This document shows, piece after piece, positions 6,067 through 30,740 of a stretch of DNA of 41,837 nt; within the stretch, counting starts at the first letter, position 1; the number at the start of each line of letters is the position of its first letter. The DNA is from a virus, in the IMG/VR virus record IMGVR_UViG_3300023104_000002, positions 1 through 41,837 of that record; one strand, written 5' to 3'. The position numbers and the translations under genes are program-made. The notes beneath the pieces are model-generated. The model saw only the letters and a list, made by a program, of their open reading frames with translations, was not told the DNA's origin and did not search any database.

Positions 6067-8091
6067 ATGACTGTCCGCCTTCTCGTTCCTGCTTATGGCA
6101 AGCAGACCAATGCGCTTTACACAGGCACCACCGCAGCTGAGCGCGCGCTGATCGATGCGGGGCAGGCGGACGAGAATCTCGCTGCGTCGTTCGATTATCC
6201 GGCGTATCTGGCGGGTAAGTCGATGGCGCCGGCTGTAGCTTTCACGCAGCCTGCCGTCGACGCTGCCACTGCCGCTGGGGTTGTGTTTGCTGATGGGGTG
6301 GCGCGGGTCGCACGTGTAGCTCCACCCGCTTCCGCGGTGGACTCGCAAACCTACAATCAGATCCCGATCGCAAAGCCGATGATATGGGACACCGACTGGT
6401 GGACTGACGTTGACGACGTGGGCGCCGCTCGCATCTTGGCATGGGCAGAGCGCGTTGGATTGGTTGACGTTCGCGCGGTCGGGTTGGACGCTAACTGGCT
6501 GTATTCACCGGGCTCTCTTGATGCAGTGCTGCGCAATGACGGGCGCCCCGACGCCGTTATGTGCAAGCCTAAGACGGCGCACGTTCCTGATGGGGCTCCT
6601 GTTTATCAGCGCAACGTCTCAATCAATTACCCAAACCGTTCGCTGGTCAACGCAAACCTGCCGGACGCCGTAACTGTGTATCGCACGGTATTGGCACAAG
6701 CCACTCGGAGCGTCGACATCGTATGCGTCGGCTACCTCACGAACATCCACGAATTGCTGAACTCGCCTGCGGATGCAATCTCACCGCTTACTGGCGCACA
6801 ACTGGTAGCTGCCAAGGTTGGTACGCTTTGGGTTATGGGCGGCGCGTATCCGTCATCCGCTGCGGCGGGTCCCGGTTCCGCTGGCGGATCGGGTGGCGCG
6901 GCAGAGAATAACTTCGCTCGCACTGCTCAATCTATTGCTGCTGCAATTAACGTGGCCGCTAACTGGCCCACCCCAATCACGTGGATGGGCTACGAGGTCG
7001 GCGTGACCGTTGTCAGCGGGCAACATCTTGGCTTCTCGTCCTCGACGGATATTGTGGCGAATGCCTACAATCTAAACGGGGCCTCCGGGGGGCGTCCATC
7101 GTGGGATCCCATGATGACCCTTCTGGCGTGCACGGGCGATCCCACGCTGGCGGGTTACACGACCGTGAGTGGGAAGAATGTCGTCGCGGCCGGTGGGGTG
7201 AACACCTTCACGGCTGGCGCGGGTAATCACCGCTATGTCGTAAAAGCGAAGGCGGACGGCTGGTATGCGAACCAGCTTAATGATTTGATGCTTCTCACGA
7301 CGCAGCCAGCGCCGCCTAGTGCGGCTCGCGTATTGCAGGACGGTTTCTGGCAGGCGCTCGCATTGTCGAACCGGAAACTTGGAATGGCCCAGCCTTCTGC
7401 GTTTGCCAATCGCACAACCGCCACGGCAGATGTCGAGAATCTGTTGTTCCAAGTTCACGCCTCCGATTGCGCAGAGGTCGGTGATGCAGGTTCTGTGTCT
7501 ATCATCCCGAACCGTGCAGGCCGTATTGGCTTCCGGCTTCCGGCTCCTAACGGAGGGATGGCGACCTATGTTGCAAATAAGGGCGGAAAGACTGCGCTGA
7601 ACTTTGCGGCTAATAACTTCTATCTGACCGAAGCCTTCCGCCAATCGCTCTATATGACGGTGTACGCGCGGGTATGGTTCGACACTCTGCCCACCGCAAA
7701 CCAGACATTGCTTTCTTGCGACAGCAACAGCGGCAATGGAACACGCCAGTTTCACGCCAAGGTTATTCCGGGCGGTATCCAGCAGATCGTCGCATTTTCT
7801 CAGACGGGCACTGCGTCAACCGACAATGGCCCTGCATCGGTAGTAACCGGCGCATGGGTCGACCTCGTATACCGGTTGAGAGAGAGCGATATCGAAGCGT
7901 TGTTTGGAGCAACTGGGGCAAGCGGAGCAACTGCTCGGGGTGCATCAGTATGCGCCAACACAGGCATTCTGGTCCTAGGCCGCTCCGGTATCACCTCGGA
8001 ACAATTCGTCGGCTTTCTCCACGAACTGCGGGTCTACCAGTCGTGGCATAGCGACGCGCAGATCGGTCTCGTCATAGCTGACATGGACTAA
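6067..8091 (+). CDS. Virion-associated protein with nucleoside hydrolase-like and lectin-like domains
   Basis: 674 aa, ATG with SD AAGGA. Residues 1-55 look like a short anchoring domain common in sphingomonad phage tail proteins. Residues about 100-350 read as an inosine-uridine nucleoside hydrolase fold: DTDWWTDVDD at 108-117 is the Asp-rich calcium/ribose site, VGYLTNIHELL (221-231) and VMGG (256-259) are the conserved core, ENNF at 280-283 matches the EFN site, and GYEVG (308-312) and RPSWDP near 345 complete the pattern. Residues about 480-674 look like a LamG/concanavalin-like jelly roll. Known enzymes of the family split N-glycosidic bonds of nucleosides; substrate here is unknown. Codon use is visibly less GC-rich than that of its neighbours, which suggests transfer. 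It sits between coat and gp4. Confidence 0.8.
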   Translation: MTVRLLVPAYGKQTNALYTGTTAAERALIDAGQADENLAASFDYPAYLAGKSMAPAVAFTQPAVDAATAAGVVFADGVARVARVAPPASAVDSQTYNQIPIAKPMIWDTDWWTDVDDVGAARILAWAERVGLVDVRAVGLDANWLYSPGSLDAVLRNDGRPDAVMCKPKTAHVPDGAPVYQRNVSINYPNRSLVNANLPDAVTVYRTVLAQATRSVDIVCVGYLTNIHELLNSPADAISPLTGAQLVAAKVGTLWVMGGAYPSSAAAGPGSAGGSGGAAENNFARTAQSIAAAINVAANWPTPITWMGYEVGVTVVSGQHLGFSSSTDIVANAYNLNGASGGRPSWDPMMTLLACTGDPTLAGYTTVSGKNVVAAGGVNTFTAGAGNHRYVVKAKADGWYANQLNDLMLLTTQPAPPSAARVLQDGFWQALALSNRKLGMAQPSAFANRTTATADVENLLFQVHASDCAEVGDAGSVSIIPNRAGRIGFRLPAPNGGMATYVANKGGKTALNFAANNFYLTEAFRQSLYMTVYARVWFDTLPTANQTLLSCDSNSGNGTRQFHAKVIPGGIQQIVAFSQTGTASTDNGPASVVTGAWVDLVYRLRESDIEALFGATGASGATARGASVCANTGILVLGRSGITSEQFVGFLHELRVYQSWHSDAQIGLVIADMD

Positions 8092-21763: not shown

Positions 21764-22070
21764 GCCTGCCTGATAGAACAGGACGGGAACGGATTGCTAG
21801 CCCCGCATCGTCACCCATCGCGCTTCGATTGCAACCCGATTCGCGCGGTGGTAGTGTACGGGTGCTGCCGGTGTAGGGGTGAAATCCGTGGAGATCGCGC
21901 AGCACGTAGTTGGGTATGGCATGGTGCTGGTCGGGGAGTTCCTAGGTCCCGAGGCCGAATGCGGATCGATACCGCGCCCGACTCTAGTTTCAGGTCCCCG
22001 CTCTGCCATCGCGGCATCGGGCTAGGGTCGGCGGGGTTGGTGTTCGTAGAGCGCCGCCTCGCTGGCTACT
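21764..22070. other. 307-bp stretch with no confident gene
   Basis: Minus-strand frames of 68-70 codons exist (21797-22009 and 21811-22017) but lack SD sites and family features, and their protein composition is poor. A tRNA-like string (ATGGCAGAGCGG, then CGGTATCGATCC) was checked and has no anticodon stem. It may be a decayed gene or the spaced 5' leader of the DnaA-domain gene. Confidence 0.5.
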
Positions 22071-24206: not shown

Positions 24207-25316
24207 CTATTTACCTACCTTTTCTGCGGGTTTCAGGCCAGTCTTTTCTTTGGCTTGTACGAAGCCTGTACGAAGGGCCTCTAAAATCTTCGAGTCGCTG
24301 TCCTCAGCGTGCGTGTAGATCTTGTCGATCATGCCGCCCTTTGCGGACCATCCGCCGACGCTCTCAATCGACTTGGTATCAACGCCCTGGCGCACGCGCA
24401 TTTCCTGTCCGAAGCCATGCCGGCCAGCGGAGTGCGGCGGGAGATGCGGAATGCCGGCTTTCTTGCAGGCCGTGATCCAGCCCTTGCGCGGACCGTCCTT
24501 GCTCGCCCAGCCGAACACGCGCTTGTTCTCAGGATAGCGCCGATCCCAACCCCGCGGGAACTTGGCTGGCAGCGCGCGCAGCTCAGCGATCAGCTCAGGC
24601 ATCAACTCCACCACGCGGTCCTCATGGCCCTTAGCCCCGGGTATGACCGCGGTGCCGGCGTCGAGGTCGAGTGCGTCAGGGTGCAGAGCCGTAGCTTGCC
24701 CAACGCGGGCGCCGGTCGTGAACATGAACAGTGCCAGCGCGCCGTGACGTTTCGATGCTTTCGCGCGGAAGGCAATTATCCATAACCAGTCCCCGGGTAC
24801 TTTCGGCTTGCGGCTGATCTTACCGCGGTTGCGATCCTGCCGCACCCGCTCGGCGCGATCGTATCCCTTGATGCGGATCGGCGGGCATAGGCCTAGATCG
24901 TTCGCATTATTGATGACGGCGCGGGCGGGGGCGATAACCCAGCGGCGCCATGTGTCTGCGGAGTTCTTCGGATAGAGCGACGCGCCCAGATCGCGGATCA
25001 TCTTCGCGGTGATCTTCTTGACCGGCAGCGAGCCTATGCGTTCCACGATCGGCATCAGGTATTTCGCCGTCTCGGTGCTAGCCGGGTACAGTACGACGGC
25101 ATCGTTAAACGTGAAGTCGCGCTCGTCGGCTTCCTCATGGCCTAGGACCTGGCGGCGCTCTTCCCGCGCCTGCCGTTCTGCGATCCATTCCCGCGCGCCA
25201 GCTTCTGTAGATGCGCCAGTGCTTTCGCGGACGTAGCCGGTAACGTCGCGCCCGTTGAACTGGATCCGGCCTTTGACCCACCACGTCTTGCCGCGGGGGT
25301 AGGGTTCGAGCGGCAT
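24207..25316 (-). CDS. int: Tyrosine-type integrase
   Basis: 369 aa. Start set at ATG 25316, with AGAGGA upstream. It has an N-terminal DNA-binding part (1-65), a core-binding domain (67-160) and a catalytic domain (170-360). Catalytic residues: R204 in TTGARVGQA, H295-R299-H300 in HSAGRH (usual HxLRH), W323 in GGW and Y334 in DKIYTHA. Carries out site-specific recombination between attP (next to its 3' end) and the host tRNA-Arg gene. The start region overlaps the xis frame by 175 bases. Confidence 0.95.
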   Translation of the reverse strand: MPLEPYPRGKTWWVKGRIQFNGRDVTGYVRESTGASTEAGAREWIAERQAREERRQVLGHEEADERDFTFNDAVVLYPASTETAKYLMPIVERIGSLPVKKITAKMIRDLGASLYPKNSADTWRRWVIAPARAVINNANDLGLCPPIRIKGYDRAERVRQDRNRGKISRKPKVPGDWLWIIAFRAKASKRHGALALFMFTTGARVGQATALHPDALDLDAGTAVIPGAKGHEDRVVELMPELIAELRALPAKFPRGWDRRYPENKRVFGWASKDGPRKGWITACKKAGIPHLPPHSAGRHGFGQEMRVRQGVDTKSIESVGGWSAKGGMIDKIYTHAEDSDSKILEALRTGFVQAKEKTGLKPAEKVGK

Positions 25317-25498
25317 GCGCCATCCTCTAAAATATGATCGATCTGCTCGGGCGTAATCAGCATCGCCTTGCCGAGCGTGAAATAGGACCCGGTGCTGCGG
25401 GCCTTGGCGCGTAGGGTGCGCTCCGACATTTCGATGTCTCGAGCGGCGAAGTGTTCGCACCATTGCGCCGGCGTCTTGGCTCGTTCGTGAGCATACAT
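25142..25498 (-). CDS. xis: Excisionase-like HTH protein overlapping int
   Basis: 118 aa from ATG 25498. Residues 1-55 (KTPAQWCEHFAARDIEMSERT, then LRAKARSTGSYFTLGKAMLITPEQIDHIL) match alphaproteobacterial small excisionase/MerR-like proteins that precede integrases. The remaining 60 residues lie in the +1-shifted frame over the int 5' end, and their ALAHLQKLA end resembles tails seen in the family. It would direct excision. The call is firm for the N-terminus; the long overlap makes the exact C-terminus less sure. Confidence 0.75.
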   Translation of the reverse strand: MYAHERAKTPAQWCEHFAARDIEMSERTLRAKARSTGSYFTLGKAMLITPEQIDHILEDGACRSNPTPAARRGGSKAGSSSTGATLPATSAKALAHLQKLARGNGSQNGRRGKSAARS

Positions 25499-27661: not shown

Positions 27662-28111
27662 TCATGCCCCACCTAGGGCGTTGAGGGCGGCGCGGATCGC
27701 GCGTTCGACCACGGGCCAGCGGAAGAACGCATATTCCATGCCCGAGTCCGTGTATTCCTCACCGTCCGGCCCGCGCAGGTCGTCCTTTACAGTGCGAATG
27801 AACTCCGCTTCTCGCGTCTGGGTGGCATTGATCGCTGGCGTCGAAGTCTGACGAAGGTTCGGGATTTCCGGCCAATTCTGTGACATGCCGTCGCGGTCCC
27901 AAAGACCCGATTGCATCTTCCACTTCAAGTGATCGCGGCGCTCGAATAGACCCATGTATAACCCAGTAGCGCCGGGCCAGTCGAACGCGTCCTTTTCGAT
28001 CGCGCGCGGTTCAGCCTCGTCGGTTTCAAGGTCGCCGGAAATGTCGAACGAATAGTCCGCACCTTCGCCCGACTTGCAAGGAAGGGGGGACATGTTTGTA
28101 TCAGTGACCAT
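27662..28111 (-). CDS. Hypothetical protein, last gene of early-left unit
   Basis: 149 aa from ATG 28111, overlapping the TnpB-like stop by 11 bases. Contains WPGATGLYMGLFERRDHLKWK and a DSGMEYAFFRWPVVERAIRAAL end. Unknown family. Ends 10 bases from the end of the opposing RHH gene. Confidence 0.65.
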   Translation of the reverse strand: MVTDTNMSPLPCKSGEGADYSFDISGDLETDEAEPRAIEKDAFDWPGATGLYMGLFERRDHLKWKMQSGLWDRDGMSQNWPEIPNLRQTSTPAINATQTREAEFIRTVKDDLRGPDGEEYTDSGMEYAFFRWPVVERAIRAALNALGGA

Positions 28112-29249
28112 CGGGCGTCTCCATGTGAGGGGATGTGCCAAAACCGGCACCGCTTGCTTTGGCCGCTCCGCTCAATGAAGAACCACGAAGGCTCCTATCG
28201 GCAGCTCCTACTTCTAGCGTGTCCAGCCCGACACGGAGAATGTTGCGCGCGGCGTTTACGTCTCGGTCGTGGACCGTTCCGCAATCGCTGCACTCCCAAT
28301 CTCTTATTCCAAGACCTGCGATACCTTTCGGCCTCGACGCGGGCAGTGAGCCACACGAAGAACAGGTTTGGGTACTGTAGGCCTCGGATACCTCAAGGAA
28401 AATCCGGCCATGCGTAATCGCCTTGTACCGGATCATGTTCTTGAAGATCGACCAGCTAGCGTCGTGTATCGACTTCGCCATCTTGGTCTTGGCCAATTTC
28501 GACGAGCTAGCATCACCAACGATGATGAGCCCGTATTTCGCGCACAATGCTTTGCTCGCCTTGTGCTGAAAATCTCTGCGACGGTTTGCCACCTTGAGGT
28601 TGATCGCGCGAACTCGCTTCGTTTTCCGGCCGCGCTGACCTTCTGCTAACGCGGCCTCACTCTGCCGGTAAAAGCGAGGCATCTGGATCGCTTCACCATC
28701 TGACAGTGTCGCGAGCGTTTTTAACCCCAGATCAATACCAACGGCCGCAGCCTCCACGGGGTCGGCGCACTGCACCTCAACTGGAACGTTGCAATACCAG
28801 TTGCCGTTGCTGTCCGCGTTGAAACTGCCAGTTCCGAACCGTTGGCCTGCATGCAGCAGGCCGCGCAGATGCATTGCTTCGTAGCGCTTGCCGTTGAACA
28901 CGAAAGCCGTGCCGTCGAACCTTACCTTGCCGGTGCTGAATGGCACCCAGCCTAGCGACCTACGCGAGCGCCAGCGCAGCCAAGGGCGCTTGTGTGCTGC
29001 CCGAGCCCTATCATAAGCTGCGCATACCCTCTGGATCGTGCACGAATGCACCCCAAGGTCGGCAGAGGCGCCGGCGGTCAGTTTCATCAGGTCGAAACCT
29101 GAAAGCCACTTCCGGCGAGCGCGCGCTGTCTTCTGCTGCGTTTCGTTGCAGTAGTTCCAGACGAAGTTGACCGAACGGGCTTGGCGATTGAGGTCAGCCT
29201 TGTGCTTGTCCCTGAGGCGAACCTTTACCGTGATGATTGTACTCGTCAT
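28101..29249 (-). CDS. TnpB-family (IS200/IS605 OrfB) RuvC protein inside phage operon
   Basis: 382 aa. ATG at 29249 overlaps the upstream stop (ATGA) and its own stop overlaps the next start. N-terminal basic helical domain, then RuvC: VGIDLGLKTLATLSDG with D173; bridge-like basic segment (RGRKTKRVRAINLKVANRRR); IIVGDASSSKLAKT (242-255), where the usual RuvC-II Glu position reads Gly; FLEVSEAYSTQTC with E286 and E289 nearby; zinc finger CSSC (296-299) and CSDC (320-323); DRDVNAARNIL with D328/D330. Members are RNA-guided nucleases, ancestors of Cas12. No tnpA, no IS ends, no adjacent non-coding guide RNA region is visible. Could be a recent IS hitchhiker or an adopted phage gene. Confidence 0.92.
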   Translation of the reverse strand: MTSTIITVKVRLRDKHKADLNRQARSVNFVWNYCNETQQKTARARRKWLSGFDLMKLTAGASADLGVHSCTIQRVCAAYDRARAAHKRPWLRWRSRRSLGWVPFSTGKVRFDGTAFVFNGKRYEAMHLRGLLHAGQRFGTGSFNADSNGNWYCNVPVEVQCADPVEAAAVGIDLGLKTLATLSDGEAIQMPRFYRQSEAALAEGQRGRKTKRVRAINLKVANRRRDFQHKASKALCAKYGLIIVGDASSSKLAKTKMAKSIHDASWSIFKNMIRYKAITHGRIFLEVSEAYSTQTCSSCGSLPASRPKGIAGLGIRDWECSDCGTVHDRDVNAARNILRVGLDTLEVGAADRSLRGSSLSGAAKASGAGFGTSPHMETPDGH

Positions 29250-29686
29250 GCCGCCTGAGCCTCGCCTTCGCGGCGTAAATCTGTGACGTCGCAGCCGAGC
29301 CACTTGCTCAGCGTCGCCAGCGCCCAGTCGACGAAGGCCTTGCGCTCGTCCTCGGTCATCTTGGCGAACGACGTGCTTTCGTAATCGCGGAACACGTCTC
29401 CGCTTGGCAGCGTCACGAGACGCACAAGGCCACGGCGGTCCTTGAGTATCTTGTGGAGCATTTCGGGATCCAGGGCGTCGCCTTCGATCCGTTCCGACAG
29501 CATCGGCGCGGCGACAGCGAGACAGGCCCAGTAAAGGGCATTCCGGCGCACGTTGCCCGCAGTCCGCGTGATGCGAACCCGAACCGGGCCGTCGTCAATT
29601 GCGGCGAGCGCGGCTTCGGCGATCGGGCCGACCGGGCGCAACCCGCCAAGCACGCGACGGAAAATCAGTGGCGCAGCATCGCTCAC
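29246..29686 (-). CDS. NinB / DUF1367-like recombination or replication protein
   Basis: 146 aa. VRRNALYWACLAVAA (46-60), HKILKDRRGLVRLVTLPSGDVFRDYESTSF-type strands and MTEDERKAFVDWALATL follow the general pattern of phage NinB/DUF1367 proteins (RNxLYWA, then S-x-SF-x-x-M). NinB-family proteins help recombination in lambda-like phages. It sits between an HNH protein and a TnpB protein, downstream of Erf. Assignment is moderate. Confidence 0.65.
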   Translation of the reverse strand: MSDAAPLIFRRVLGGLRPVGPIAEAALAAIDDGPVRVRITRTAGNVRRNALYWACLAVAAPMLSERIEGDALDPEMLHKILKDRRGLVRLVTLPSGDVFRDYESTSFAKMTEDERKAFVDWALATLSKWLGCDVTDLRREGEAQAA

Positions 29687-30069
29687 ATCAGTTCTCCAGT
29701 TAGATAATCGTCACGGTTCGCGACCGCGATGGCGACCAGATCGACGCCGGTCTTCGCGAGGAACGCGGCCTCGCTGCCGAGTAGGTGGACGCTGTTCGTC
29801 CCCATGTTGTGGCAACCCGGATCCAGCTTCACGACCAGCATGTGATCGCGGCGCGAGCCTTTCCCGGGGGCGCTGGCAAGGATGTGGTGAACCACCGTCC
29901 CGCCGTGACGTCCGCAGCCCATGCAGACGTCGCCGAGCGTGTCCCAGTACGCCTGCTCGTCCGCGTTCGGCTTGATCCCGCGCGAGACAGCCTTGCGGGC
30001 TACCTTGCGGACCGGGGTGGTGCGGCGCATCGGCGTCTTGGCGCGCAAGGGGGTGTGGCGGGCGAGCAT
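29683..30069 (-). CDS. HNH-type nuclease, Ref-like recombination endonuclease
   Basis: 128 aa. Basic N-terminus (35 residues, Arg/Lys-rich), then CMGCGRHGGTVVHHI (49-63), DHMLVVKLDPGCHNMGTNSVH and GSEAAFLAKTGVDL, the HH-x(n)-CH-N-x(n)-H arrangement and final helix of Ref/NinX-like HNH proteins in phages. Acts near Erf; probably cuts DNA in recombination or repair. ATGA-coupled to the NinB-like gene. Confidence 0.75.
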   Translation of the reverse strand: MLARHTPLRAKTPMRRTTPVRKVARKAVSRGIKPNADEQAYWDTLGDVCMGCGRHGGTVVHHILASAPGKGSRRDHMLVVKLDPGCHNMGTNSVHLLGSEAAFLAKTGVDLVAIAVANRDDYLTGELM

Positions 30070-30740
30070 CAGAAAGCCTCGCCAGCGCTCAGCACGGTCC
30101 GGCGATCAGTGAAGGCCTTCTGCACCGCCTTGAAGATAAACGGGTCGACCTTGTTAACGCCGTTGATCAGCCGCTTGTTGCGGTCTCGCAGATCGTCCAA
30201 GCTGTCGTTGTCGACGGCCAATCCGGCTTCTTCGATCAGCTCGCGCGCCCAATCACCCCAGCCGGTCGCGGGCTCGTCAATATGGACCTTGACCTCGTGT
30301 GTCTCTTCGTCGGCGTCGGGCGTGCCCTCGACCGGGATATTGAACAGCATGAACGCGGCGCTCTTGTATGCTGCCGACATCGCCTTGGCCGTCGACTTGT
30401 CGCCGCTGTCGAGCGCTTCGCCATAGGACGATGCAGTGTGCTGCGATCCGTCCTTAACCGAGACAAAATCAAATTCGCCTTTGACGGTCGTGTAGAACAG
30501 ATTGCCGCCCGACTTCGATACGCGCTCGACCTGGGCCCGCTCGACGATGCGGGGGATCACGACTAGCCCTTTAGCTGGTAACAGCGGCCCGAGCGTTTCG
30601 TAAACGTCGTCGATACCGCGGAACATGTAGCCGCTGCCCTGCGAGTTCTTGCGGGTCTTCGCGATGCCGACCTTGGCAATCTCAGCCTGAACCTCGGCAA
30701 TCGCTGCATAGACTTGCGGCGCGGTCTGTGATGCCGTCAT
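30069..30740 (-). CDS. erf: Erf-family single-strand annealing recombinase
   Basis: 223 aa (P22 Erf is 204 aa). GYMFRGIDDVYETLGPLL (37-54) and YGEALDSGDKSTAKAMSAAYKSAAFMLF (104-131 in two adjoining motifs) are the ERF signature. Anneals single strands, and in P22 circularises the incoming genome when packaged ends are redundant. Consistent with headful packaging and the circular map. Confidence 0.93.
   Translation of the reverse strand: MTASQTAPQVYAAIAEVQAEIAKVGIAKTRKNSQGSGYMFRGIDDVYETLGPLLPAKGLVVIPRIVERAQVERVSKSGGNLFYTTVKGEFDFVSVKDGSQHTASSYGEALDSGDKSTAKAMSAAYKSAAFMLFNIPVEGTPDADEETHEVKVHIDEPATGWGDWARELIEEAGLAVDNDSLDDLRDRNKRLINGVNKVDPFIFKAVQKAFTDRRTVLSAGEAF

Follow-up and report, generated by a model that had tools for sequence, protein, structure and literature searches.

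A phage-resident TnpB nuclease with a predicted guide RNA inside its own reading frame and guide matches in sister phages

Background

What is a TnpB-family protein doing in a phage operon that shows no transposon around it? The question is raised by the window analyzed here, the whole 41,837-nucleotide (nt) stretch of IMG/VR record IMGVR_UViG_3300023104_000002, a viral contig, in which an open reading frame (ORF) of 382 amino acids (aa), tnpB, occupies 28101..29249 of the minus strand (ATG at 29249, TGA stop ending at 28101). We favor, with a probability of roughly 0.58, the reading that this ORF encodes an RNA-guided homing or exclusion nuclease directed against sister phages: a phage-resident TnpB, without transposon machinery, whose RuvC-II glutamate takes the alternative (Ealt) position. 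Expression, cleavage, exclusion or homing, and the target-adjacent motif are predictions from sequence. Numbers such as L002 or L054 denote comparison loci.

Results

A rearranged RuvC site

The ORF was assigned to the TnpB family by profile matches, alignment and predicted structure. It matches the Pfam profiles PF07282 (E = 4e-23) and PF01385 (E = 2e-11) and scores 219.8 bits against the NCBIfam model guided_TnpB (NF040570; cut-off 100). The AlphaFold model (mean pLDDT 87) resembles ISDra2 TnpB (8h1j; Z 22.5) and mimivirus Fanzor2 (Z 21.2), both aligned over residues 1-347, as well as 8exa (Z 22.1), and its last 33 residues (350-382) are disordered.

We mapped the catalytic residues in an alignment of 48 sequences. 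The RuvC-I Asp173 (codon 28731..28733), Glu289 (28383..28385) and the RuvC-III Asp330 of the DRD motif (28260..28262), all on the minus strand, are invariant among the 48, and the zinc finger (C296-C299 ... C320-C323; 28281..28364, minus strand) is present as CxxC...CxxC. A preliminary description of this DNA had noted D173, the zinc finger and DRD as intact and a Gly at the usual RuvC-II position, exactly as we find them, and had supposed that the catalytic Glu had either moved (to E286 or E289) or been lost. The alignment decides for a move to E289, and against E286 and loss: G245, which stands in IIVGDASSSK in place of the canonical RuvC-II Glu, is itself invariant (48/48), and E286 is merely frequent. 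E289 lies exactly six residues ahead of the first CxxC (ExxxxxxCxxC), which is the Ealt position of Fanzors and of one bacterial TnpB clade (PMC10711439), and the complete Ealt pattern (D-x-G, E six before CxxC, CxxC...D) is found in residues 173-330. The protein does not share the DPG of pro-Fanzors: its RuvC-I motif reads DLG, and P occurs at this place in 1 of the 48 sequences. A cleavage screen found activity for one TnpB ortholog whose RuvC-II is rearranged (PMC10278001). Purifying selection acts on the protein (dN/dS of about 0.2 against L002, L059 and L003, a rough value, given dS above 1). The alignment and motifs thus give good support to a predicted TnpB that is intact rather than dead, its RuvC site rearranged with the Glu relocated to E289.

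A guide RNA scaffold within the coding sequence

The preliminary description had seen no stretch that could hold a guide RNA. A candidate omega-RNA (guide scaffold) does exist, within the gene itself rather than in non-coding DNA of its own: covariance model R1, which derives from 25 loci outside the window, matches the window at full length at 28159..28247 on the minus strand with 30.6 bits (E = 7e-8, part of the score coming from codons that are also conserved as protein), and the next best match in the window has E = 2. The 25-locus alignment shows two-sided changes in 10 of 15 pairs and a covariation of 0.355, versus 0.152 in shuffles. In the relatives, conserved DNA at the 3' end of the gene comprises hairpin A, a linker and hairpin B, followed by GGACGTCAA or GCAGTCAC, beyond which the sequences diverge. 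Stem A of the window (CGTGTC/GACACG) pairs perfectly and the RNA 3' end reads GGAGCGGCCAA; in place of stem B there is a longer hairpin that adjoins the 3' tail, leaving 9 nt from hairpin to guide. The tnpB ORF reads on through both the omega-RNA end and the guide. Rfam gave no match in the window at gathering scores. We regard it as well supported, from these comparisons, that the 3' end of the ORF encodes a predicted omega-RNA, as it does in the relatives. Because TnpB is known to generate omega-RNA by processing the mRNA that encodes it (PMC10278001), a polycistronic transcript poses no difficulty, and the window TnpB may release its RNA in the same way.

The predicted guide and its matches in other sphingomonad phages

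The predicted guide, AGCAAGCGGTGCCGGTT (28142..28158, minus strand), comprises the first 17 nt after the omega-RNA. It matches other sphingomonad phages exactly from guide position 1, and the match stops after 17 nt; in agreement with this end point, a 20-nt pattern spanning the 3' side of the guide found no match. The matches lie at the 5' ends of several different early genes, where AGAAC is followed by AGCAAGCGGTGCCGGTTGCGCAGG; we find the motif behind AGAAC in L054, L059, L137, L139, L144, L152, L169, L171 and L176, and in a variant context in L147 and L168. An exact 16-mer of the guide occurs in 41 contigs, many of them unrelated and chance-like, with about nine plus L054 and L059 in the gene-start context. 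For ISDra2 TnpB, a guide of 16 nt was used (PMC8612924).

The two closest relatives carry different guides, L002 TCTTGTCGCAGGGAG and L059 AGCCCCCGCCTCGGTGT, and these match different motifs that are conserved in this phage group, again from position 1 and over 15-17 nt. For each of the three sphingomonad copies, similarity to other phages begins exactly at guide position 1 (runs of 17, 15 and 17 nt). Of the 15-mers that follow the three RNA ends, only 3.2%, 0.07% and 1.7% are shared with phages retrieved independently, through ninB. In L059 the match runs antisense to the next gene. No second copy of the guide target was found in the window within three mismatches, and the L002 phage record likewise holds no second copy of its own target. 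The guide of L004 has matches in unrelated contexts only, indicating that a match to conserved phage motifs is not general among guides of more distant relatives.

Sister phage L054 holds the targets of all three guides. Over three compared 3-kb stretches it is 100% identical to a prophage region in Sphingomonas sp. PP-CE-3G-477, a strain that also carries L059, the L054-like region being on another contig (L054, L059 and G002 contig C3 331619-333402). The protein of L059, which lies in a prophage-like region of this strain, is N-terminally truncated and fused.

A variable slot in a mosaic early region

The start of tnpB shares ATGA (29249-29246) with the stop of the upstream ninB-like recombination gene (29246..29686; phrog_72, E = 6e-6), and its 3' end overlaps by 11 bases (28111-28101) a downstream 149-aa gene (27662..28111; ATG at 28111) without a family match. 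Further upstream in the same operon is an Erf-like single-strand annealing gene (30069..30740; phrog_155, E = 1e-29). These findings bear out the preliminary description, which had reported a TnpB-family ORF coupled on both sides and preceded by recombination genes. All of these genes, and the integrase, are on the minus strand. The downstream gene had no relatives in the viral contigs or phage records searched and is unusable for synteny. A tRNA-Arg(CCT) gene at 21908-21984, 2.2 kb from the integrase (24207-25463), could be an attachment-site marker or a phage-encoded gene.

Homology of the window to L054 (92.7% over 2488 bp) ends exactly after ATGAC (29245..29249, minus strand), the left junction at the ninB stop and tnpB start; TGAC also flanks the left end of mobile relatives. 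A different ORF follows ATGAC after ninB in this closest sister phage, and the slot behind ninB is variable rather than cleanly empty. Neither mark of an ordinary mobile insertion named in the preliminary description, a clean empty site in a sister phage or identical copies in host genomes, was found: the best copy is 72% identical, and 1 of 398 genomes (the family of the Sphingomonas host of L059) carries one.

Near-identical DNA motifs of 20-35 nt also occur at the starts, ends and interiors of sphingomonad phage early genes, joined to unrelated sequence (window 28086-28057, 27835-27801 and 27697-27676; L054, L137, L139, L144, L152, L171 and L176). They resemble linkers for recombination within a region of mosaic cassettes.

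Transposon parts and relatives

The record has no match to the Y1 transposase TnpA (PF01797). As for end hairpins, the right-end RNA hairpin is present in the window, if remodeled, and the left-end hairpin of mobile relatives is not seen there, in line with the earlier statement that tnpA and a left end are absent. The betaproteobacterial relatives are mobile and present in multiple copies; they carry a left-end hairpin, and their right end falls just beyond the stop. In phage relatives of alphaproteobacterial type (L005, L007, L009 and L010), read by eye, TGAC precedes the element at a gene start, and the start of a phage gene is recovered in frame once the flanks are joined at this TGAC. Among the other phage-borne relatives the nearest are L002, L003 and L004, in which the first 10-11 guide nt recur on the left side of tnpB (at about 5964, 5870 and 5920, behind CCGCC, ATGAC and CCGAC, respectively); of 64 elements, 3 have this repeat. 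Peel-and-paste transposition does not produce a duplication (PMC8612924); break-repair insertion inside the element's own target could yield such a repeat.

A Shine-Dalgarno-like stretch and an ATG lie inside the omega-RNA of several alphaproteobacterial-type phage relatives (L005 6991-7090, L007 6988-7077, L009 2616-2723, L010 1667-1766 and L118 4988-5087), where the scaffold (KPRPSGRGAVT-like) forms an in-frame N-terminal extension of the downstream phage gene; this is an operon-compatible insertion at a start codon. A second strong omega-RNA match in the L009 phage locus (8452-8373, minus strand; 50.6 bits) points to another TnpB element, and contig G406 of the phage-borne relative L010 has a Y1 transposase gene at 6801-7154.

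Discussion

How the nuclease might act

In the mechanism that we propose, tnpB would be translated from the early operon, and the omega-RNA with its guide would be the 3' part of its own mRNA, released by TnpB. The 17-nt guide would pair with the 5' AGAAC-AGCAAGCGGTGCCGGTT motif that early genes of sister sphingomonad phages carry, and these phages would be cut on co-infection or in the lysogen. The break would disable the rival, and the homology of the ninB flank, together with the phage recombination genes, could copy the cassette into it; homing and rival exclusion are two sides of one cut. The owner phage would be spared because its genome has no second target copy. Seen as a homing gene, tnpB has a guide that matches uninterrupted motifs in sister phages, and it would cut the uninterrupted allele and be copied there. 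Cutting of rivals by the window TnpB is likewise something we infer. We would give even odds to the wider proposal that a temperate sphingomonad phage lineage uses TnpB as an inter-phage weapon and homing gene that has neither transposase nor left end, encodes scaffold and guide within an early-operon coding sequence, and directs its guides against short motifs conserved across competing phages.

Several observations weigh against the nuclease reading. Stem B of the window RNA is remodeled, and its fold from the single sequence does not outscore shuffles (z -0.42). The early genes are mosaics of short conserved motifs, such that the match at the guide position could reflect recombination there. 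Only three sphingomonad copies are available (window, L002 and L059), one of them the truncated and fused L059, and a search with the L002 protein found none beyond these. The target of L059 coexists with it in the second prophage region of Sphingomonas sp. PP-CE-3G-477, which would be explained if the L059 protein is inactive. The window guide itself served to retrieve most of the phages that match it (L054 is an exception), so the counts for this guide are biased. Finally, no single clear motif emerges from the nucleotides before the targets (AGAAC, CCGCC and GCAAC), which are also unlike the TGAC found at the left ends of mobile relatives.

Alternative explanations

An ordinary TnpB-only insertion sequence (IS1341-like) after ninB, with a decayed left end, an interrupted phage gene downstream and a nuclease that maintains the element, is the alternative to take most seriously, although we consider it unlikely. 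The mobile betaproteobacterial relatives and the in-frame gene starts restored by eye in L005, L007, L009 and L010 speak for it, but the window lacks the left-end hairpin and tnpA, the match of its flank to the presumed empty site extends over just 17 nt, the L059 match is in antisense orientation, and the partial duplication of the target in L002-L004 is unlike peel-and-paste transposition. That the cassette is instead decaying and without present function, its guide match a remnant of modular recombination at a motif conserved in phages, seems to us improbable: the remodeled stem B, the read-through of the ORF past the RNA end into the flank and the mosaic early region would fit, but the ORF is full length and under the selection described above, the RNA matches the covariance model, and three different guides have matches with the same start and similar length.

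The least probable of these explanations is a nuclease-dead, RNA-guided repressor (TldR-like) of a phage or host gene. Like the TldRs known in temperate phages (PMC13418256), the window protein is a TnpB homolog fixed in a phage without a transposase, here in an early operon. In contrast to the inactivated RuvC of TldRs, all three catalytic acids (D173, E289 and D330) are kept, and it is the relocation of the Glu to E289 that makes a dead repressor unlikely; this reading was dropped once E289 had been mapped. The guide matches coding starts in other phages rather than a host promoter, with no second target in its own genome, whereas the TldR guide matches the host flagellin gene. Of the earlier interpretation, adoption by the phage and early-operon expression remain plausible; a lost Glu, a guided repressor and a missing guide RNA do not.

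Relation to known systems

The nuclease favored here resembles the TnpBs of IS200/IS605 elements (ISDra2 and ISFba1) in the predicted fold of residues 2-347 (Z of about 22), the RuvC D and DRD, the zinc finger, and a predicted 3'-end omega-RNA whose hairpin is no more than 10 nt away from the guide. It differs in its alternative Glu, in its place in a phage operon without tnpA or a left-end hairpin, and in an ORF that runs through the RNA right end and guide. With Ealt D-Phi-G TnpBs and Fanzor2 it shares the Glu six residues before the zinc finger, the DLG of the D-Phi-G clade and, for mimivirus Fanzor2, a close predicted structure; unlike pro-Fanzors it lacks DPG, and its context is a proteobacterial phage. 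Free-standing phage homing endonucleases (T4 and ICP1 HEGs; PMC10448857) are also encoded near early or recombination genes, at a boundary of genetic exchange, and act on the uninterrupted allele, as predicted here for sister phages; they recognize DNA through a protein interface, in place of the RNA guide. Insertion sequences in plasmids offer a precedent, a TnpB gene drive (PMC11870625) whose guide keeps a record of the insertion site and leads to cutting of replicons that lack the element; there an IS200/605 insertion sequence acts among plasmids, and here phage would act against phage, with no transposase or left end. We found no phage TnpB with a homing or superinfection role in titles or abstracts of the openly accessible literature (subscription papers were mostly outside this scope), and the predicted guide match to conserved motifs of sister phages appears to be new here.

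Conclusions

Guide RNAs inside a reading frame can be overlooked, and the lack of non-coding flanks is no ground for calling a phage TnpB guide-less. If the nuclease reading is true, it would provide an RNA-guided nuclease whose natural targets are open to direct testing and one case linking transposon nucleases, homing endonucleases and phage-encoded CRISPR, and TnpB would join the tools that phages use against each other.
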